Positions 17,652-25,423 of a DNA stretch of 25,519 nt are shown here, one piece after another. Location of the stretch: positions 1 through 25,519 of the IMG/VR virus record IMGVR_UViG_3300031837_000052. One strand, written 5' to 3'. Numbering within the stretch: the first letter of the stretch is position 1; every line of letters starts with the position of its first letter. The DNA is from a virus. The translations under genes were made by a program, and so were the position numbers. The notes beneath the pieces are model-generated. The model was not told the DNA's origin and made no database searches. It saw only the letters and a program-made list of their open reading frames with translations.

Positions 17652-17815
17652 TTTATCCTCGACGAATACGCCGTATATTGAAGAACGGCATCCCGAACAG
17701 TTGAAGCTGGTACATTCAGCACCTTGCCAATCCTCTCATACCCGAATACTCCCGGATTGTGCAATTCCTTCGCTTGGCGAACTTGCTCATCGGTTAGTTT
17801 TCTTGCCCGTGTCAT
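17648..17815 (-). CDS. Small resolvase-type HTH protein
   Basis: A 55-residue protein: MTRARKLTDEQVRQAKELHN, then PGVFGYERIGKVLNVPASTV and RDAVLQYTAYSSRIK. The helix pattern LTDEQVRQAKELH - YERIGKVLNVPASTVRDAV is that of the C-terminal HTH of resolvases and related DNA-binding proteins. Its start couples to the helicase-methyltransferase stop (ATGA) and its stop to the next start. About 30 bases around its start codon reappear near 20124-20153 at a mosaic junction. It is probably a small DNA-binding regulator. Confidence 0.65.
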   Translation of the reverse strand: MTRARKLTDEQVRQAKELHNPGVFGYERIGKVLNVPASTVRDAVLQYTAYSSRIK

Positions 17816-20025
17816 GCCGCAACCTCCGCGAATAAATCAGCAGTATGCGATGTTGCGGTCGCCATGTTCTTCAATGCTTGTTCGTAATAACTTGGTTTCA
17901 ATTCACTACCAATGAATCTCCGACCCATTTTTACGGCTGTATATCCCTCACTTCCAACTCCAGTAAAAGGGCTAAATACAAGGTCACCTGGGGCTGTCCA
18001 CAACTCCATTGCGCGTTCAATGACGTCAAGTTGCAAAGGGCAAATATGTTTGACGTCATCGTCTTCTCGTGCATCACGGAAATTCAATGTGCGCGACTGG
18101 TCGATATCAAACCAAACAGGCGATGCATATCGCTGCCACATTGTTACCGGAAATTCCTCTGCTGTATGACTGATGAACTTTTCATTCTGTCCAGGCTTGC
18201 GGAAAACTACAAGATAATCAGCCAGTCCTTGACGGCTCATCGAGCTGTCTTTCTTGATTGTTTTGTGCAGTAGTCCAAGTGCTTTCGTGCGCTGCATCGC
18301 CACAACCGGATCTTTCCAAATGCATACTTCCGAATGGTAGATGAATCCTGCAGCTTGATGCGCACGGATAATATCGCCACGGAAGTCACGAATACCAATA
18401 AAACCATCATTCGCTTTTGATGTCGTCAAATTCATGCAGTGGACTACAACTAAACGACCAGGCTTCATCATTCGATAATTCTGTTCAATTAGGAACTGGT
18501 AATGAATCCTGAAATCTTCCGTTGACTTGTTGTTACCCATATCCCGGTCAGAGTTCGAATAGGTAAATAGTGATTCGAATGGTGGACTATAAATTGTGAA
18601 GTCAATAGATTCATCGACAATCTCTTGTGATAAGTCGATGCAATCTGCGTTGTGAATCGTCCACTGTGGGGTTTCTTTCACTTGCCGCACGTAGTCCATT
18701 TTCTCCTGTGTCGCGCCGAATATTTCCTTTTTCATCGAATCACTCATGAATTTCACCATCTCCGATCCCATAGTTTCGTTTTGTTCTTCTTTTCGTTTTA
18801 TGTTGGCAACGACCGCACCTTCTGATTCTGCGCTAATAACATGTACATTTACTTCTGATTCCTGACCAAACCTATAGAACCGGCGAATTGCCTGATAATA
18901 CTGTTCCCACGAATCAGACAGTCCGACGAATGCCGTGTTGTGGCAATGCTGAAAATTCATACCCGCTCCAAGTATGCGTGGTTTGCTAATCAGAACACGG
19001 ATACCGCCGTCAATGAAGGCGTTGACACACTCCTCTTTATGTTCGATGGAATCGCTGCCAGCTACATCAACCGCGCCATGAATCAACTTAACGAGCTTCT
19101 CCGCCTCTTCATTGCGATGACACCAGATAACCCATTGCTCGGTCGATGCATTGACGACATCGGCGCATTTTTCAACGCGATCATCGATGCTTTCCTTGCG
19201 TGCCTTGTTGCGATCCATAAGACCACATGCGATATCTGCGAATAATCCGTCGGTAGTTTTAGACTCGACAACATGATCGAACATATTCAATTTTGGCAAA
19301 ACATACGATGAACCGTCAAAGCCAAGATCGGACGGACTCCTAATAACGCACGCCCATGTTGATAGCCATTCCCAGAACTTGGCCTTCCCGTGACCCTTTA
19401 AAATCCATGTTCCAGTATCGCCAGCGTCATTGATGAAAAACATTGCCAGCATTTCAGTCATACTCATGATGCCAAGGAACTCCGATTGATTGCCCAATTC
19501 CATGAAGTCATTCGGGCTTGGCGTTGCCGTGCAACTCAGTCTATAAGGGACTGTCTGACATGCGGAAATAATTGCATTGCGTGTTTTCCCATCGCGGTTT
19601 TTGATAATACTAGATTCATCCAACACAATGCCGTGAAAGTCATCCAGATTGAATCTGTCAAGCATCTCGTAATTCGTGATATTGATACCTGGCTTAGAAT
19701 TTTCCTGATCGCGGCAAAAGTTGATATCAATGCCGAATTTAATTCCTTCGCGCACTGTTTGTTGTGCTACGCATAATGGAGCCACAATCAACACATCACC
19801 ATCGGTATGGTCGATTACAGACTTCGCCCAACTTGTCTGCATCAATGTCTTGCCAAGACCTGTATCAGCAAAAATAGCGGCACGTCCACGCTTCAATGCC
19901 CACTTCACAATGACTCTCTGGAAATCGAACAAGTTCACATTGAGTGATTCAAGTTCAACATCAAATCCTGAAATAATCGGCGTGATCTTTTTTCTTTCTA
20001 AGAATTTTTGGTATGTTTCATTCAT
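17812..20025 (-). CDS. SF2 helicase-DNA methyltransferase fusion
   Basis: A 737-residue protein with two enzyme domains. Residues about 1-430 are an SF2 (SNF2-type) helicase or translocase: FADTGLGKT (52-60, Walker A), VLDESS (134-139, DEAD-box equivalent), SCTATPSPND (164-173, motif III) and QAIRRFYRFGQ (378-388, motif VI with an arginine finger). Residues about 450-737 are a beta-type N4-cytosine/N6-adenine methyltransferase: YSPPFESLF (479-487, motif IV catalytic SPPF) comes before FSPFTGVGSEG (about 684-694, motif I, AdoMet). Fusions of this sort occur in phages; DNA modification that protects against host restriction is plausible. The target base and site cannot be read. The start overlaps the upstream micro-gene stop. 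Confidence 0.85.
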   Translation of the reverse strand: MNETYQKFLERKKITPIISGFDVELESLNVNLFDFQRVIVKWALKRGRAAIFADTGLGKTLMQTSWAKSVIDHTDGDVLIVAPLCVAQQTVREGIKFGIDINFCRDQENSKPGINITNYEMLDRFNLDDFHGIVLDESSIIKNRDGKTRNAIISACQTVPYRLSCTATPSPNDFMELGNQSEFLGIMSMTEMLAMFFINDAGDTGTWILKGHGKAKFWEWLSTWACVIRSPSDLGFDGSSYVLPKLNMFDHVVESKTTDGLFADIACGLMDRNKARKESIDDRVEKCADVVNASTEQWVIWCHRNEEAEKLVKLIHGAVDVAGSDSIEHKEECVNAFIDGGIRVLISKPRILGAGMNFQHCHNTAFVGLSDSWEQYYQAIRRFYRFGQESEVNVHVISAESEGAVVANIKRKEEQNETMGSEMVKFMSDSMKKEIFGATQEKMDYVRQVKETPQWTIHNADCIDLSQEIVDESIDFTIYSPPFESLFTYSNSDRDMGNNKSTEDFRIHYQFLIEQNYRMMKPGRLVVVHCMNLTTSKANDGFIGIRDFRGDIIRAHQAAGFIYHSEVCIWKDPVVAMQRTKALGLLHKTIKKDSSMSRQGLADYLVVFRKPGQNEKFISHTAEEFPVTMWQRYASPVWFDIDQSRTLNFRDAREDDDVKHICPLQLDVIERAMELWTAPGDLVFSPFTGVGSEGYTAVKMGRRFIGSELKPSYYEQALKNMATATSHTADLFAEVAA

Positions 20026-20123: not shown

Positions 20124-20165
20124 GTTAGTTTTCTTGCGCGTGTCATGCAGCACCACCTTAATCAC
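20022..20165 (-). pseudogene. NinG C-terminal fragment fused to the head of an HTH gene
   Basis: From GTG 20165 the frame gives 47 residues ending in EALESNNTPAKW and VAKLKELKK, the last 33 of which copy the C-terminus of the NinG protein at 21237. The first part (20124-20153) copies instead the start region of the small HTH gene at 17815, in another reading frame. The ATG of that start (20146) now runs into a 24-codon frame. The stop overlaps the helicase start as ATGA, so the remnant may still serve translational coupling. A short functional peptide is possible but a recombination scar is more likely. Confidence 0.6.
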
Positions 20166-21240
20166 ACAGACCGTATGATGACGCACATACAGTTGACTCG
20201 TGGAGTTCGGTCAACAGTGAAAACTGTTTACCGCCTCGGCTAGTTTTCGACCATTCGACAACCGAGTAAATGTTGTTTTCTTTGGCGTAGGCTTGCTTAT
20301 TCATGACGACTTCTCCCATCCACGGCGCAGGAATAAACGTCGCGGCTTGCCGTTTGCTACAAGCCGCGACCTTCTTTTCCCATTCAGATATCCTCTCGAT
20401 GTGTTCCGGGAAGCGCAGCGCAATTTCCTTAATTTCTCCCTTGTTGGCATTGATGCATGGCATGCAACCAACTCGTCCCATTCCGCATTTGTATAGTGGA
20501 TTGGGTTCGATACCATGGCTGGCGGCGTAGACGAATGTGTCATCGGCAGTCCAGTCAACAATGGGTCTGTACACATAAAGCTGGTCAGAAATTTTCTCGA
20601 ATTTCTTAGCGTGACGGCGGTTCAGAGATTCGTCACGCCGCACGCCTTGCCAACTAACGACTGTATGACCAGCGTCAACCAGTTCTAGCTGGTATCCGAC
20701 CGCCATGTCACGCTTTAAGTGCTCTGTGCAAAACTGCGCTTTTCTAGAAGGGAAGCGGCCTTTCCACATGCACATATCTAAGAAAGGGTTGCCGGTTGGG
20801 TATAGGTTCGCAAGAGCGCGGCGCTTTGCCTTGTTTGTCCAGCGCACGCGCTTACCTCCGCCGATCTTGATCGTCTTATGGACTGGCTCGCCCTTCTTGT
20901 TGAGAACAATGTTGCCCAGTCCGTCACGCTTCGGTACTGGTGTCTTGCCATCGACCTCGAACACTGGCTTGGTGTCATATTCCCTGCGTGTGCGCTGATC
21001 GCGAGCGATAAAATACCGTTTTGCGGCAATTTCCGCGTCAAAATTTGCGCACAAGATGACGATCTGAATACCAGTTTCGCGCTCCAAGTAATCGCGGTGT
21101 GACCAAACAAGTTCGCTCTCGTTGCCGGTGTCGCAAATTATTCCGCGCACTCGATGCGCGCCGAAACGCTCCTTAGCTAGCAACAATGTCGCTACGCTAT
21201 CCTTACCAGTTGAGCATGATACGACGTGAATGATACTCAT
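20158..21240 (-). CDS. PAPS-reductase-family PP-loop enzyme
   Basis: A 360-residue protein. The ATP-type PP-loop is SCSTGKDSVATLLL (8-21), followed by CDTGNESELVWSHRDYLERE (36-55). FCTEHLKRDMA (170-180) and VSWQGVRRDESLNRR (195-209) are the other family motifs. CGMGRVGCMPC (252-262) may bind metal or an Fe-S cluster. Residues about 72-155 are a basic insertion that I do not see in cellular CysH. Such phage proteins are annotated as PAPS reductase-like but are more probably nucleic acid or small-molecule modifiers (compare DndC of DNA phosphorothioation); substrate is unknown. It sits between ninG and the helicase-methyltransferase and is flanked by copies of the ninG end. Confidence 0.8.
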   Translation of the reverse strand: MSIIHVVSCSTGKDSVATLLLAKERFGAHRVRGIICDTGNESELVWSHRDYLERETGIQIVILCANFDAEIAAKRYFIARDQRTRREYDTKPVFEVDGKTPVPKRDGLGNIVLNKKGEPVHKTIKIGGGKRVRWTNKAKRRALANLYPTGNPFLDMCMWKGRFPSRKAQFCTEHLKRDMAVGYQLELVDAGHTVVSWQGVRRDESLNRRHAKKFEKISDQLYVYRPIVDWTADDTFVYAASHGIEPNPLYKCGMGRVGCMPCINANKGEIKEIALRFPEHIERISEWEKKVAACSKRQAATFIPAPWMGEVVMNKQAYAKENNIYSVVEWSKTSRGGKQFSLLTELHESTVCASSYGLCD

Positions 21241-21338
21241 TTTTTCAACTCTTTCAGTTTAGCCACGTAATGGACTTTGATCTGCTTCAGTTCATCAATC
21301 GACCACTTGGCAGGGGTGTTGTTGCTCTCAAGTGCTTC
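21237..21338 (-). repeat. Direct repeat, copy 2 (native ninG 3' end)
   Basis: This is the end of the intact ninG gene and the likely parent of the copy at 20022-20123. Its stop (TGA) overlaps the PP-loop gene start as ATGA. Confidence 0.85.
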
Positions 21339-21806
21339 GACGGCTTCTAGGCCTATTTTGGCGATTAGCCGAGGCCGATACTTTGCGATGTTTCCAGACA
21401 AATACGAATTACACTTTTCGCACTGCAAATGCACGTTCTGTTCATTGAACCTCAAATGTGGTGCTGCACCCACAGAGAGGAAATGCCCAGCGTTCACCTT
21501 GCATCCGCTTGAAGTGCCGCAGGAAATGCACGGCTGTCCGGCATCACGCTCCCTGATGAATTTATTGAAAACAACTTGCGCCTCCTTCAACCAGTCAGAC
21601 CGCGACTTCAATTTATCCAGACGATCCTTCTTTGCCTTAGTCGCTAGTTTTGATGCCGCCCTTTCATTCTTTGCGCGAATTGCCAGTGCAAAATTAATCG
21701 CGCAATCGGGGCTACAAACTACCGCGCCGAAATTATGATGCGGCTGAAACTCCTTTCGGCATGCTTTGCAGCGGGGGAGCTTCACTTTATTTGTGCGGTT
21801 AAGCAT
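21237..21806 (-). CDS. ninG: NinG (Rap-like) recombination protein
   Basis: A 189-residue protein from the ATG at 21806; it overlaps the methyltransferase stop as TGATG. The N-terminus has a zinc site, CKACRKEFQPHHNFGAVVC, with a further DC (four Cys). The C-terminal half is an HNH-type domain: CISCGTSSGCKVNAGHFLSV, then APHLRFNEQNVHLQCEKCN and SGNIAKYRPRL. Size and order agree with lambda NinG (204 aa), the Holliday junction and branched-DNA nuclease that helps RecA-type and Red recombination. It is in the usual late-early position. The longer upstream reading to 21857 lies in the methyltransferase gene. Confidence 0.85.
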   Translation of the reverse strand: MLNRTNKVKLPRCKACRKEFQPHHNFGAVVCSPDCAINFALAIRAKNERAASKLATKAKKDRLDKLKSRSDWLKEAQVVFNKFIRERDAGQPCISCGTSSGCKVNAGHFLSVGAAPHLRFNEQNVHLQCEKCNSYLSGNIAKYRPRLIAKIGLEAVEALESNNTPAKWSIDELKQIKVHYVAKLKELKK

Positions 21807-22716
21807 CAGAATCTTCCTGAAAGGATGGTGAATGCTGTTGCAGCCACTCGCGGACATTGCGCATTCCCAAGGGCGACAAGGCGCTCCAATCTGTGGGGAA
21901 ATCCATCCTCTGTTCCGTCCAGCGTGGGCAGATTTTTAATCTGCCAATCTCGGTTCCACGGTAAATGTTTCCACTTCCCCCTAATTCCTGAAGTGTGCCG
22001 CCCCAATGATTGCTTCCAGCGTTCGGTGTTGGGATCATTCGTCTCAATAGATGTTCGCCTAATCGCACTCCTCTTGATGTCGCATGTTGGCGCTTGGATA
22101 CAAGCGCCAAGCTCATGCTCTCCGATCTGCAATCCGTTGCCACTGGCGTGGGCAACAATCCAGATTCTCTCTCTTTCGTGATTTCCTCCCAGTGCCCCGA
22201 CTGAAAATATTCCCCATTCCGAATCGAACCCCATCTCGACCAAGTCTCCGAGAACTCGGTGTAACCCCCTAGAAGTGAGAGCTGGGCTGTTTTCCACGAA
22301 GACGATTCGCGGTCGTACTTCGCCAATGATGCGCTTGAACTCTGCCCACAATCCGCTTTTATCGCCGTCGATTCCTGCCCCTTTTCCTGCGGTGCTGATG
22401 TCCTGACAGGGAAACCCGCCCGCGACAATATCGATGAGTCCACGCCACTTTGTTCCGTCAAATTTCGCGACATCATCAAAGATTGGAAAGAAGGGAAGAC
22501 TCCCGTCTTCCTGCCGTGCCGCCAAGACTTGCTGGCAATAGCTATTGATTTCGACTGCGCAGACGGGTTGATGTCCGAGTAGTATGTCGGCAAGAATCCC
22601 TCCGCCAGCGCCTGCAAATAGATGCATAGTTCTGAGTCGCTGCAATTTACTGGCCCTCCCATTTGTTTTTCTTCGAGCAGTTTTTCGTGTGCCACATTGG
22701 GCGTAGATTGTTTCAT
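21799..22716 (-). CDS. Overlapping frame on the same strand as the C5 methyltransferase, 305 codons
   Basis: The ATG at 22716 overlaps the preceding stop as TGATG, and the frame runs 305 codons to 21799 over nearly the whole methyltransferase gene in another frame. The protein has recognisable features: SLAKYDRESSSWKTAQLSLL (130-149), FSETWSRWGSIRNGEYF (155-171), GLLPTPVATD (186-195), MIPTPNAGSNHW and RWTEQRMDFPTDWSAL (265-280). I recall this order (SxWKTSQxSL - FSxTWPRxGxxRNGxxY - GLLPTPxATD - LMxxPxxWT) from many phage and prophage proteins labelled hypothetical or DNA cytosine methyltransferase. It has no catalytic methyltransferase motif. Translation is not proven; the length without a stop and the coupled start support it. 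Confidence 0.55.
   Translation of the reverse strand: MKQSTPNVAHEKLLEEKQMGGPVNCSDSELCIYLQALAEGFLPTYYSDINPSAQSKSIAIASKSWRHGRKTGVFPSFQSLMMSRNLTEQSGVDSSILSRAGFPVRTSAPQEKGQESTAIKADCGQSSSASLAKYDRESSSWKTAQLSLLGGYTEFSETWSRWGSIRNGEYFQSGHWEEITKERESGLLPTPVATDCRSESMSLALVSKRQHATSRGVRLGEHLLRRMIPTPNAGSNHWGGTLQELGGSGNIYRGTEIGRLKICPRWTEQRMDFPTDWSALSPLGMRNVREWLQQHSPSFQEDSDA
21806..22645 (-). CDS. C5 cytosine DNA methyltransferase
   Basis: With the TTG at 22645, which follows GGGAGGG by about 9 bases, the protein has 279 residues. An ATG at 22627 is a close alternative, and the frame stays open upstream to 22747. Motifs in order: MHLFAGAGGG (7-16, motif I), VEINS (31-35, motif II), GGFPCQDIS (76-84, motif IV with catalytic Cys80), FVENSPAL (116-123, motif VI), HERERIWIVA (156-165, motif VIII) and LVALGNAQCPRV near the end (motif X). 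The protein is short, so the target recognition domain is small. It methylates carbon-5 of cytosine, probably to evade host restriction; the site is unknown. Stop couples to ninG. Confidence 0.9.
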   Translation of the reverse strand: MQRLRTMHLFAGAGGGILADILLGHQPVCAVEINSYCQQVLAARQEDGSLPFFPIFDDVAKFDGTKWRGLIDIVAGGFPCQDISTAGKGAGIDGDKSGLWAEFKRIIGEVRPRIVFVENSPALTSRGLHRVLGDLVEMGFDSEWGIFSVGALGGNHERERIWIVAHASGNGLQIGEHELGACIQAPTCDIKRSAIRRTSIETNDPNTERWKQSLGRHTSGIRGKWKHLPWNRDWQIKNLPTLDGTEDGFPHRLERLVALGNAQCPRVAATAFTILSGRF

Positions 22717-22889
22717 CACCGAATCTCGCCACGCTTAGCAGCCGCACGGTGTTCTGTGGTTTGCTTTGCCATGAATCGCATGAACTTTTGTGTCTTTGCG
22801 AAGGTTTCAGAAGATAGCGCAGCCAGGAAGCCGAACGATGGCCCCCAAGCTTCGCCGGTTGGTGCGGTTTTGAAGATGTGCTTTTTCAT
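22716..22889 (-). CDS. Small hypothetical protein before the methyltransferase
   Basis: A 57-residue basic protein: MKKHIFKTAPTGEAWGPSFG, FLAALSSETFAKTQKFMRFM, then AKQTTEHRAAAKRGEIR. The start lies 2 bases after the previous stop. Its stop is joined as TGATG to the ATG of the overlapping frame at 22716, not to the methyltransferase start, which supports translation of that frame. No domain is recognised. Confidence 0.55.
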   Translation of the reverse strand: MKKHIFKTAPTGEAWGPSFGFLAALSSETFAKTQKFMRFMAKQTTEHRAAAKRGEIR

Positions 22890-24361: not shown

Positions 24362-24686
24362 CTTTGAAAATCAGCATTGGATCAATCTCGCCAAGCGTGC
24401 AAAGTACCACCATGCGCGCTCCAGCAGCCGCTAGGCGCTCCGAAAGGTCGATCAGGTCATCACACATCGCGGGTGCATGCAAATGCACTGTGCAGTCGTG
24501 GACGAATCTAAAATCTTCTTCGCGCCATGCTTCCGCAATTTCCATTTCGACGGTCGCATGCTTTTTCGTCCGCAGGAAGGTTTCAGGGTCGCCCATCAAG
24601 CCGCGTCCAAGATCAACCTCAAAAAATATTGATCCTGGCTTGTACCCTGCTTTGCGCGCAGCGCGGATAGTTTCTTGTCCGTTCAT
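24339..24686 (-). CDS. Hypothetical protein of the replication module
   Basis: A 115-residue protein from the ATG at 24686 (ATGA with the previous stop). Parts: ETIRAARKAGYKPGSIFFEV, DLGRGLMGDPETFLRTKKHA, a helical Glu/Arg-rich middle, and ARMVVLCTLGEIDPMLIF near the end. It overlaps the helicase start by about 20 bases. No domain is recognised; the operon position suggests a DNA replication context. Confidence 0.65.
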   Translation of the reverse strand: MNGQETIRAARKAGYKPGSIFFEVDLGRGLMGDPETFLRTKKHATVEMEIAEAWREEDFRFVHDCTVHLHAPAMCDDLIDLSERLAAAGARMVVLCTLGEIDPMLIFKDGAWNAY

Positions 24687-25423
24687 TGCATGAACCAATC
24701 TGGCGAATTGCCGTTTTTATTTTCCTTGTCAAGCCAAGAAGCCTTGAACCCGGCCCACCCATTTGCGCAGCATGTTTTTAAAACATCGTTTGGCAAGAGG
24801 GAGGTTTTTTTAATTTCATTGAAAATAATATCGAACGCTGTTTCTGTTGGAGCAAGCTTTTTTACTTTCCTAACTGCAAGCCAGTCTTTTGCCACTTTTT
24901 CATCTATCCCGCGATTTTTCAAATCATCAAGCGGTGAATATTTTGAATTCTTTGGTGCTATGTTTTTGTTTTTTTTATTTAAAGGTGAAGGTGATGGTGA
25001 TGAGCATGAATCAAGCATTGCTTGAGCATTGCTTGGAGCATTGCTTGGAGCATTGCTTGGAGCATTGCTTGGAGCATTTTTTTTGTCTCTCCATCTAGCC
25101 GCAGCACCAGCAGCAGCGCGGCTTTGCGCTGTTTCTCTATTTTTATCAGCTTTGGCTAACTCTTCGTCTATCCGACCATGCCGCCAATATCCATCGACTA
25201 CATTGAAGTAATGCTTGATCGATGCTTGAGCAATGCTCCAAGCATCGATTGTCATTCTAGTAATTTGCGCAAGAACTTCAGGATTGTCGGGAGGCGGTCC
25301 GCTTTTCCAATAATCCATCATCAACAGAAGGTAAGCCCCATGTTGTTGTGTGGTAAGTCTGGAGGTAGCCGCCAAGTAGTCACCTATGTAAATTGGCATC
25401 CAGATATCAGCCTTCTCAGCCAT
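24683..25423 (-). CDS. YdaU/DUF1376 replication protein
   Basis: A 246-residue protein. Residues about 7-100 are a DUF1376 (YdaU) domain: WMPIYIGDYLAATSRLTTQQ, HGAYLLLMMDYWKSGPPPDN, then a helix with IDEELAKADKNRE. DUF1376 proteins stand in the place of lambda O-type replication initiators or replisome organisers. A low-complexity linker follows (NAPS repeated four times, then Ser/Pro-rich and Lys/Asn-rich). A C-terminal helical part with PLDDLKNRGIDEKVAKDWLA and CCANGWAGFKASWLD follows that. The ATG at 25423 has AAAGGG 7 bases upstream. Its gene contains the 12-bp iterons and a palindrome, so it may both encode and contain the origin, as in lambda O. Confidence 0.85.
   Translation of the reverse strand: MAEKADIWMPIYIGDYLAATSRLTTQQHGAYLLLMMDYWKSGPPPDNPEVLAQITRMTIDAWSIAQASIKHYFNVVDGYWRHGRIDEELAKADKNRETAQSRAAAGAAARWRDKKNAPSNAPSNAPSNAPSNAQAMLDSCSSPSPSPLNKKNKNIAPKNSKYSPLDDLKNRGIDEKVAKDWLAVRKVKKLAPTETAFDIIFNEIKKTSLLPNDVLKTCCANGWAGFKASWLDKENKNGNSPDWFMQ
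25026..25073 (+). repeat. Four 12-bp tandem iterons with A/T-rich flanks
   Basis: GCATTGCTTGGA occurs four times exactly (25026-25073), preceded by an 11-base variant at 25015-25025. On the coding strand this gives NAPS repeats. The left flank at 24961-24980 and right flank at 25074-25084 are T-rich tracts. It is a candidate replication origin element. Confidence 0.75.
25218..25249. repeat. Long palindrome inside the replication gene
   Basis: ATCGATGCTTG (25218-25228) and CAAGCATCGAT (25239-25249) are perfect complements, and the inside adds AGC-AAT-GCT with one unpaired C, so the stem reaches 14 bp. A further ATGCTTG lies at 25211-25217. The ATGCTTG word overlaps that of the iterons (TTGCTTG). 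Confidence 0.7.

Follow-up and report, generated by a model that had tools for sequence, protein, structure and literature searches.

The window analysed here is a phage record of IMG/VR (IMGVR_UViG_3300031837_000052) of 25,519 nucleotides (nt), whose minus strand carries a C5-cytosine methyltransferase frame, called alpha, and a second open frame, called beta, in the +1 register of the same DNA. An earlier note made from the sequence alone had described two same-strand frames open together for about 840 bases, the second of 305 codons, and both are indeed there. The alpha frame is open from 22747 and ends at the stop codon 21808-21806, while beta extends from the ATG at 22716 to a TAA stop at 21799. 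Alpha has the PF00145 catalytic domain, the PCQ of motif IV and motif VIII that characterize C5-methyltransferases. The features of the locus are the following.

22716..22889, minus strand: upstream open reading frame (ORF) of 57 codons, its TGA overlapping the beta ATG as TGATG (sequence)
21799..22716, minus strand: beta, +1-frame ORF of 305 codons, probable recognition/motif IX subunit (phrog_1008, E 2.8e-20; +1 frame open in 78/80 relatives sampled by alpha)
21806..22645, minus strand: alpha, frame of a C5-cytosine methyltransferase with motifs I-VIII and X (PF00145, E 2.3e-28; phrog_363, E 5.6e-62)
22655..22660, minus strand: GGGAGG, probable Shine-Dalgarno sequence of alpha, located inside beta (sequence)
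22598..22627, minus strand: alpha motif I, MHLFAGAGGG (sequence)
22394..22420, minus strand: alpha motif IV including the catalytic Cys, GGFPCQDIS (GGFPCQ invariant in the alignment of relatives)
22145..22171, minus strand: alpha motif VIII, ERIWIVAHA (profile similarity of alpha to ordinary C5-methyltransferases stops here)
21931..22161, minus strand: target-recognition region, conserved best as beta (against phage Mwe-JY08, and in 38/38 pairs)
22161-22132 and 22038-22012, minus strand: the two PTP modules of the recognition region, GLLPTPVATD and MIPTPNAGS
21877..21930, minus strand: beta motif-IX-like segment, CPRWTEQRMDFPTDWSAL (consensus LNPxWVEWLMGWPxGWT; aligns with motif IX of ordinary enzymes)
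21851..21877, minus strand: alpha motif X, VALGNAQCP, directly downstream of the beta motif IX (sequence)
21237..21806, minus strand: ninG, downstream gene (PF05766, E 9.4e-63)

The motifs that the earlier note listed for the second frame were located in beta, and the TGATG junction it described joins beta to the 57-codon ORF (22889-22716), for which no Pfam family was matched. At the other end, the probable ATG of ninG (21806-21804) overlaps the alpha TGA and immediately precedes the beta TAA.

Conservation of the second open reading frame

The overlap of the alpha and beta frames is real, and an opening of 305 codons is not a matter of chance, as the earlier note had argued. Synonymous codon shuffling of the window's gene (run on L004, an identical gene) introduced a mean of 6.5 stops into the +1 frame; a frame this open was not reached in any of 200 shuffled versions. 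Eighty viral relatives were then considered, fetched by the methyltransferase motif alone and blind to beta. In 78 of them beta is open along 85% or more of the gene, and the whole set contains 2 internal beta stops against 320 expected from synonymous shuffling; the free appearance of stops in related phages, which would have spoken against a second gene, is thus not seen. Stops were also counted by region in a set of 171 genes, from which four loci having internal beta stops had been excluded. Expected numbers were 175 for the first half of motifs I-VIII, 313 for the other half and 113 for the recognition region, and not one stop was found in any of the three. Similarly, all of 18 phage relatives have a long open +1 frame and a stop-rich +2 frame; one of them, Synechococcus phage S-H1, shows additional stops close to both ends. 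The depletion is weaker among distant alphas, with 28 stops against 90 expected in those related to mycobacteriophage SG4 and 79 against 457 in those related to S-H1.

A control set was formed by 39 PF00145 enzymes from bacterial genomes, chosen by a simple motif rule. These ordinary C5-methyltransferases show no depletion at all, since their +1 frames contain 449 stops and 449.2 were expected. Only two of the 39 have an open +1 frame, and both belong to the LFAGAGGG subfamily, which is the family found here.

The pattern of nucleotide change provides a second line of evidence. Among pairs whose proteins are 75-85% identical, differences at the first, second and third codon positions are 0.185, 0.098 and 0.481 in flanking control genes and 0.206, 0.134 and 0.272 in alpha. 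Since each third position of alpha serves as a second position in beta, the reduction of third-position differences is the signature expected of a selected beta frame. In the same identity range, identity in the +1 frame is 0.69 for alpha genes and 0.47 for the flanking controls. Taken at the sequence level, these results support beta as an overlapping gene under selection.

Alternatively, beta might not be a protein at all, and the codon usage of a conserved gene might simply leave its +1 frame open. Ordinary C5 enzymes too contain fewer stops in the +1 frame than in the +2 frame (449 vs 808), and no confident AlphaFold2 fold of beta was obtained, as detailed below. However, the synonymous shuffles, the flanking-gene controls and the ordinary enzymes all contradict this explanation, as does a recognition region that is more conserved as beta than as alpha (see below), and we give it almost no probability. 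Chance or codon usage was rejected as a general account of the opening on the basis of the shuffles and of both controls.

Distribution of constraint between the two frames

Most of the pairs used for the codon-position comparison share relatives, and therefore the distribution of constraint along the gene was reanalysed on 38 independent pairs, splitting the gene at motif VIII and immediately before motif X. Over motifs I-VIII alpha is more conserved than beta in 38/38 pairs. In the recognition region, between motifs VIII and IX, the situation is reversed, beta being more conserved than alpha in 38/38 pairs. The same division had been seen in a larger set. Pooled differences in this region are 0.337, 0.130 and 0.122 for the first, second and third positions of alpha, most of the change falling on the alpha first position, which is the wobble position of beta. 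For instance, the recognition regions of the window and of Microcystis phage Mwe-JY08 are 0.25 identical as alpha and 0.53 identical as beta.

Read as beta, the recognition region consists of repeated (W/F/L)PTPxAxD modules, whose number and kind differ among relatives. Two loci, L021 and L023, have motif I-VIII parts that are 99% identical and a divergent recognition region (identity 0.54 as alpha, 0.70 as beta), which suggests a replacement of specificity modules.

Relationship of beta to other C5-methyltransferases

In ordinary C5 enzymes motif IX, LTPRECARLMGFPDTF, is found shortly upstream of motif X and in one frame with it. A regular-expression scan of all loci for motif IX in the alpha frame found it in none of the alphas of this family except in two odd loci, L026 and L204, the latter carrying an indel that shifts the frames; the remaining in-frame matches were ordinary enzymes. 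Alpha thus lacks the full motif set of a single-chain enzyme, and its profile similarity to ordinary C5-methyltransferases ends at motif VIII. Where ordinary enzymes carry motif IX, it is beta that ends in LNPxWVEWLMGWPxGWT.

Actinophage enzymes link beta to the missing half. The family phrog_1008 is matched by the window's beta and by 90/92 betas. The same family matches, in frame, residues 391-549 of mycobacteriophage Aggie gp53 (E 3.9e-71) and the C-terminus of Gordonia phage JKSyngboy gp4 (E 1.3e-32), two single-chain enzymes with motifs I, IV, VIII, IX and X. The motif-IX-like segment of beta aligns in frame with motif IX of both proteins. In mycobacteriophage Noelle the enzyme is divided: gp77 extends no further than motif VIII, and the recognition modules are found together with motifs IX and X in gp76 (phrog_1008, E 9.2e-79), which lies in the +1 frame with an overlap of about 180 bases. 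A profile built from 130 betas aligns with the recognition modules and motif IX of Aggie gp53 and with motif IX of JKSyngboy gp4; it gave no positive score for ordinary enzymes, its E-values being relative to a set of 22 sequences. The ordered motifs that the earlier note had linked to many phage proteins correspond to the recognition and motif IX half of C5-methyltransferases. Beta is very probably the recognition subunit of a C5-methyltransferase made of two polypeptides.

Several observations weigh against this assignment. The direct profile match between beta and motif IX of ordinary enzymes is 17 columns long and carries no statistical weight; the link is provided by the actinophage intermediates. 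The phrog_1008 match of the window's beta extends over positions 40-200 and coincides only in part with what the single-chain enzymes match. AlphaFold2 models of beta alone were of low confidence, with pLDDT values of 53.6 for the window's protein (76 sequences) and 57.0 for a short canonical beta (130 sequences); perhaps alpha is needed for beta to fold. In addition, beta shows conservation barely above the neutral level in its N-terminal half, yet this half is uninterrupted by stops. The earlier note had recognized VRTSAPQEKGQ in beta as the shifted reading of motif IV, which it is, and had supposed that the catalytic core itself would constrain the overlap; however, beta is weakly conserved in this N-terminal half, and selection on its sequence is concentrated in the recognition/motif IX region. 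Pfam and NCBIfam contain no family for beta, and a sequence search of the PDB with beta found no match.

Start signals

In most relatives the starts of alpha and beta are paired and 4 nt apart: ATGAATGAG. Alpha begins xNE, written xxxAATGAG, in 181/199 genes, and the beta ATG lies 4 nt past the first codon of alpha. Asn2 of alpha, which has to be AAT for the beta ATG to exist, is AAT in all 181 xNE genes (background 38%) and Glu3 is GAG in 177 of those genes (background 34%). The retention of these two codons keeps the beta ATG in place, while the first codon of alpha is variable and can be ATG, GTG, TTG or located upstream. In Escherichia coli PT62 a single Shine-Dalgarno sequence is able to serve both starts, GGAGGTAACTGTGAATGAG.

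The window has no paired start. Its alpha probably begins at the TTG at 22645, 9 nt behind the GGGAGG sequence (22660-22655), and its beta probably at the upstream ATG; an additional in-frame beta ATG is situated at 22662-22660.

These data bear on the possibility that a programmed +1 frameshift past motif VIII fuses the catalytic part of alpha to the recognition/IX part of beta, the beta start never being used. Conservation switches from alpha to beta directly after motif VIII, and single-chain forms occur in actinophages; both observations favour this explanation. However, it accounts neither for the stop-free 5' half of beta (0 stops vs 488 expected) nor for the conservation of the beta ATG in 181/181 genes, and the fusion would be devoid of motif X, a motif of the alpha frame. 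Such a frameshift is very unlikely.

Proposed mechanism and comparison with known systems

We consider that the locus encodes a two-polypeptide C5-cytosine methyltransferase from overlapping frames, with a probability of roughly 80%. Alpha would contribute the S-adenosylmethionine-binding and catalytic motifs I-VIII, plus motif X, and beta, from the +1 frame, the target-recognition region and motif IX. A single mRNA would give rise to both polypeptides. A common ribosome-binding site appears to be used for the two in most relatives, while in the window the initiation of beta would probably be coupled to the upstream gene and that of alpha would probably occur at the TTG. The two chains may then assemble into a heterodimeric methyltransferase whose target is read by beta, and the enzyme would methylate phage DNA at the target set by beta, shielding it against host restriction. 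Since no restriction enzyme can be recognised next to the methyltransferase gene of the window, such a protective function is the usual assumption.

The known precedent for this organization is M.EcoHK31I, in which the larger polypeptide carries motifs I-VIII and X and the smaller one motif IX (PMC3404938). M.EcoHK31I and M.EaeI are C5-methyltransferases of YGGCCR composed of two polypeptides, as proposed for alpha and beta. The partition of motifs is the same in alpha and beta, the direct profile match to motif IX being weak by itself. The second polypeptide lies here in an overlapping frame, and Lee et al. 1995 are said to have found EcoHK31I beta encoded likewise, in an alternative frame within alpha. 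There are also differences. M.EcoHK31I belongs to a restriction-modification system, while no cognate restriction endonuclease could be recognised among the neighbours of the window's gene. The recognition domain of M.EcoHK31I is predicted in the larger polypeptide, whereas conservation here puts recognition in beta. The EcoHK31I beta, reportedly of 176 amino acids, is shorter than the beta described here. Unlike M.EcoHK31I, the present family belongs to phages and prophages and its starts are usually 4 nt apart. What is new is how widely phages carry the arrangement, that the overlap is of nearly full length, that the starts are paired, and the evidence for a recognition region read in the second frame.

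The split enzymes of actinophages (Noelle gp77/gp76, Euratis 33/34) also consist of a catalytic gene and a recognition/IX gene in the +1 frame, and Noelle gp76 belongs to the same phrog_1008 family as beta. However, their genes overlap by only about 30-180 bases and motif X is in the second protein, while it is in alpha here. M.AquI is another two-subunit C5-methyltransferase, but its small subunit carries motifs IX and X together, whereas GNAQCP (motif X) is found in alpha here. Mycobacteriophage ShiLan offers a different case of an out-of-frame protein within a phage methylase gene, an insertion with a hidden HNH endonuclease (PMC11855218). This is a homing-endonuclease insertion, while beta spans the gene proper; the window's beta had no Pfam match, and no HNH match was found among the relatives of beta.

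If the proposed mechanism is correct, a common phage gene has been misread, its specificity residing in a frame that annotation omits or reports in place of the catalytic one. The locus would also be a same-strand overlap of almost complete length that is very widespread among phages, its two frames having clearly separate tasks. Phage dcm-like genes cloned as single proteins are predicted to be inactive, and specificity predictions for these orphan methyltransferases should rely on the beta frame.

Distribution and annotation

Sequence searches show that hundreds of phages and prophages carry the alpha/beta arrangement. Searches with the beta frame yielded 80 bacterial and 80 viral loci, all of them with an overlapping alpha. 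In one phylum, 26/398 sampled genomes have a match, and the profile-confirmed betas among them are all in the +1 frame of a C5-methyltransferase, with the exception of one frameshifted copy. Relatives of Noelle gp76 are present in 571 phage records. As to whether such proteins come from overlapping or from stand-alone genes, nearly all overlap alpha in the same +1 register, actinophages carrying half-overlapped and single-chain forms. A search for stand-alone beta genes found only a decayed fragment, L410.

Six prophage loci (L112, L118, L150, L152, L155 and L171) have a nonsense codon in alpha and an open beta. In L150 the motif IV sequence reads GGFPC*DIS (* being the stop), and in L118 and L171 the nonsense codon occurs soon past motif VIII, where the alpha of Noelle also ends. 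Loci of this kind, L150 for instance, would favour beta as an independent protein, for example one that counters restriction or that inhibits or regulates the methyltransferase. However, they may be early pseudogenes, and they may mean little because the sample was selected by beta. Moreover, the conserved half of beta is the recognition/motif IX half of C5-methyltransferases, and no beta apart from alpha was found except L410; an independent beta is, in our opinion, highly improbable. On these two grounds an anti-restriction role was rejected. The earlier note had proposed an overprinted gene for either a methyltransferase partner or an anti-restriction or inhibitor protein; the first is the best-supported interpretation and the second found no support. 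A further possibility, considered unlikely, is that beta functions on its own in alpha-broken prophages, binding specific DNA sequences or countering restriction, while in intact phages the shared DNA would make any change of recognition module alter both chains of the enzyme together.

Gene callers pick one of the two frames, and the locus is usually annotated as a single or wrong gene. Beta is annotated and the catalytic alpha is not in WWT39928.1, AUS01725.1, AUR97051.1 and WWO60469.1 (L001, L002, L011 and L012, respectively), and phrog_1008 is labelled DNA methyltransferase despite being the non-catalytic half. The record of Paenibacillus phage Bloom (L477) lists both overlapping coding sequences, BLOOM_56 and BLOOM_57, in the alpha/beta arrangement, each named DNA cytosine methyltransferase. 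In the open-access literature searched, no earlier report of the alpha/beta overlap in phages was found. Relatives of a Citrobacter copy were detected by blastn in 4/5,426 complete E. coli genomes, including PT62 (L483), which has an intact prophage pair at 1254489-1255226 of its chromosome, and PCP07014 (L484), in which both frames are broken at the same place.

Neighbouring genes

The neighbours of alpha and beta in the window are NinG, a PAPS reductase, an SNF2-helicase/N4-N6 methylase, a DnaB-like helicase and three others without family. Downstream of the methyltransferase, a fusion of an SNF2-like helicase and an N4/N6 DNA methylase adjoins a PAPS-reductase-domain protein (17812-20025 and 20158-21240), and this pair is possibly a further DNA modification module. 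At 24683-25423 there is a DUF1376 protein with a short tandem repeat encoding NAPS units.
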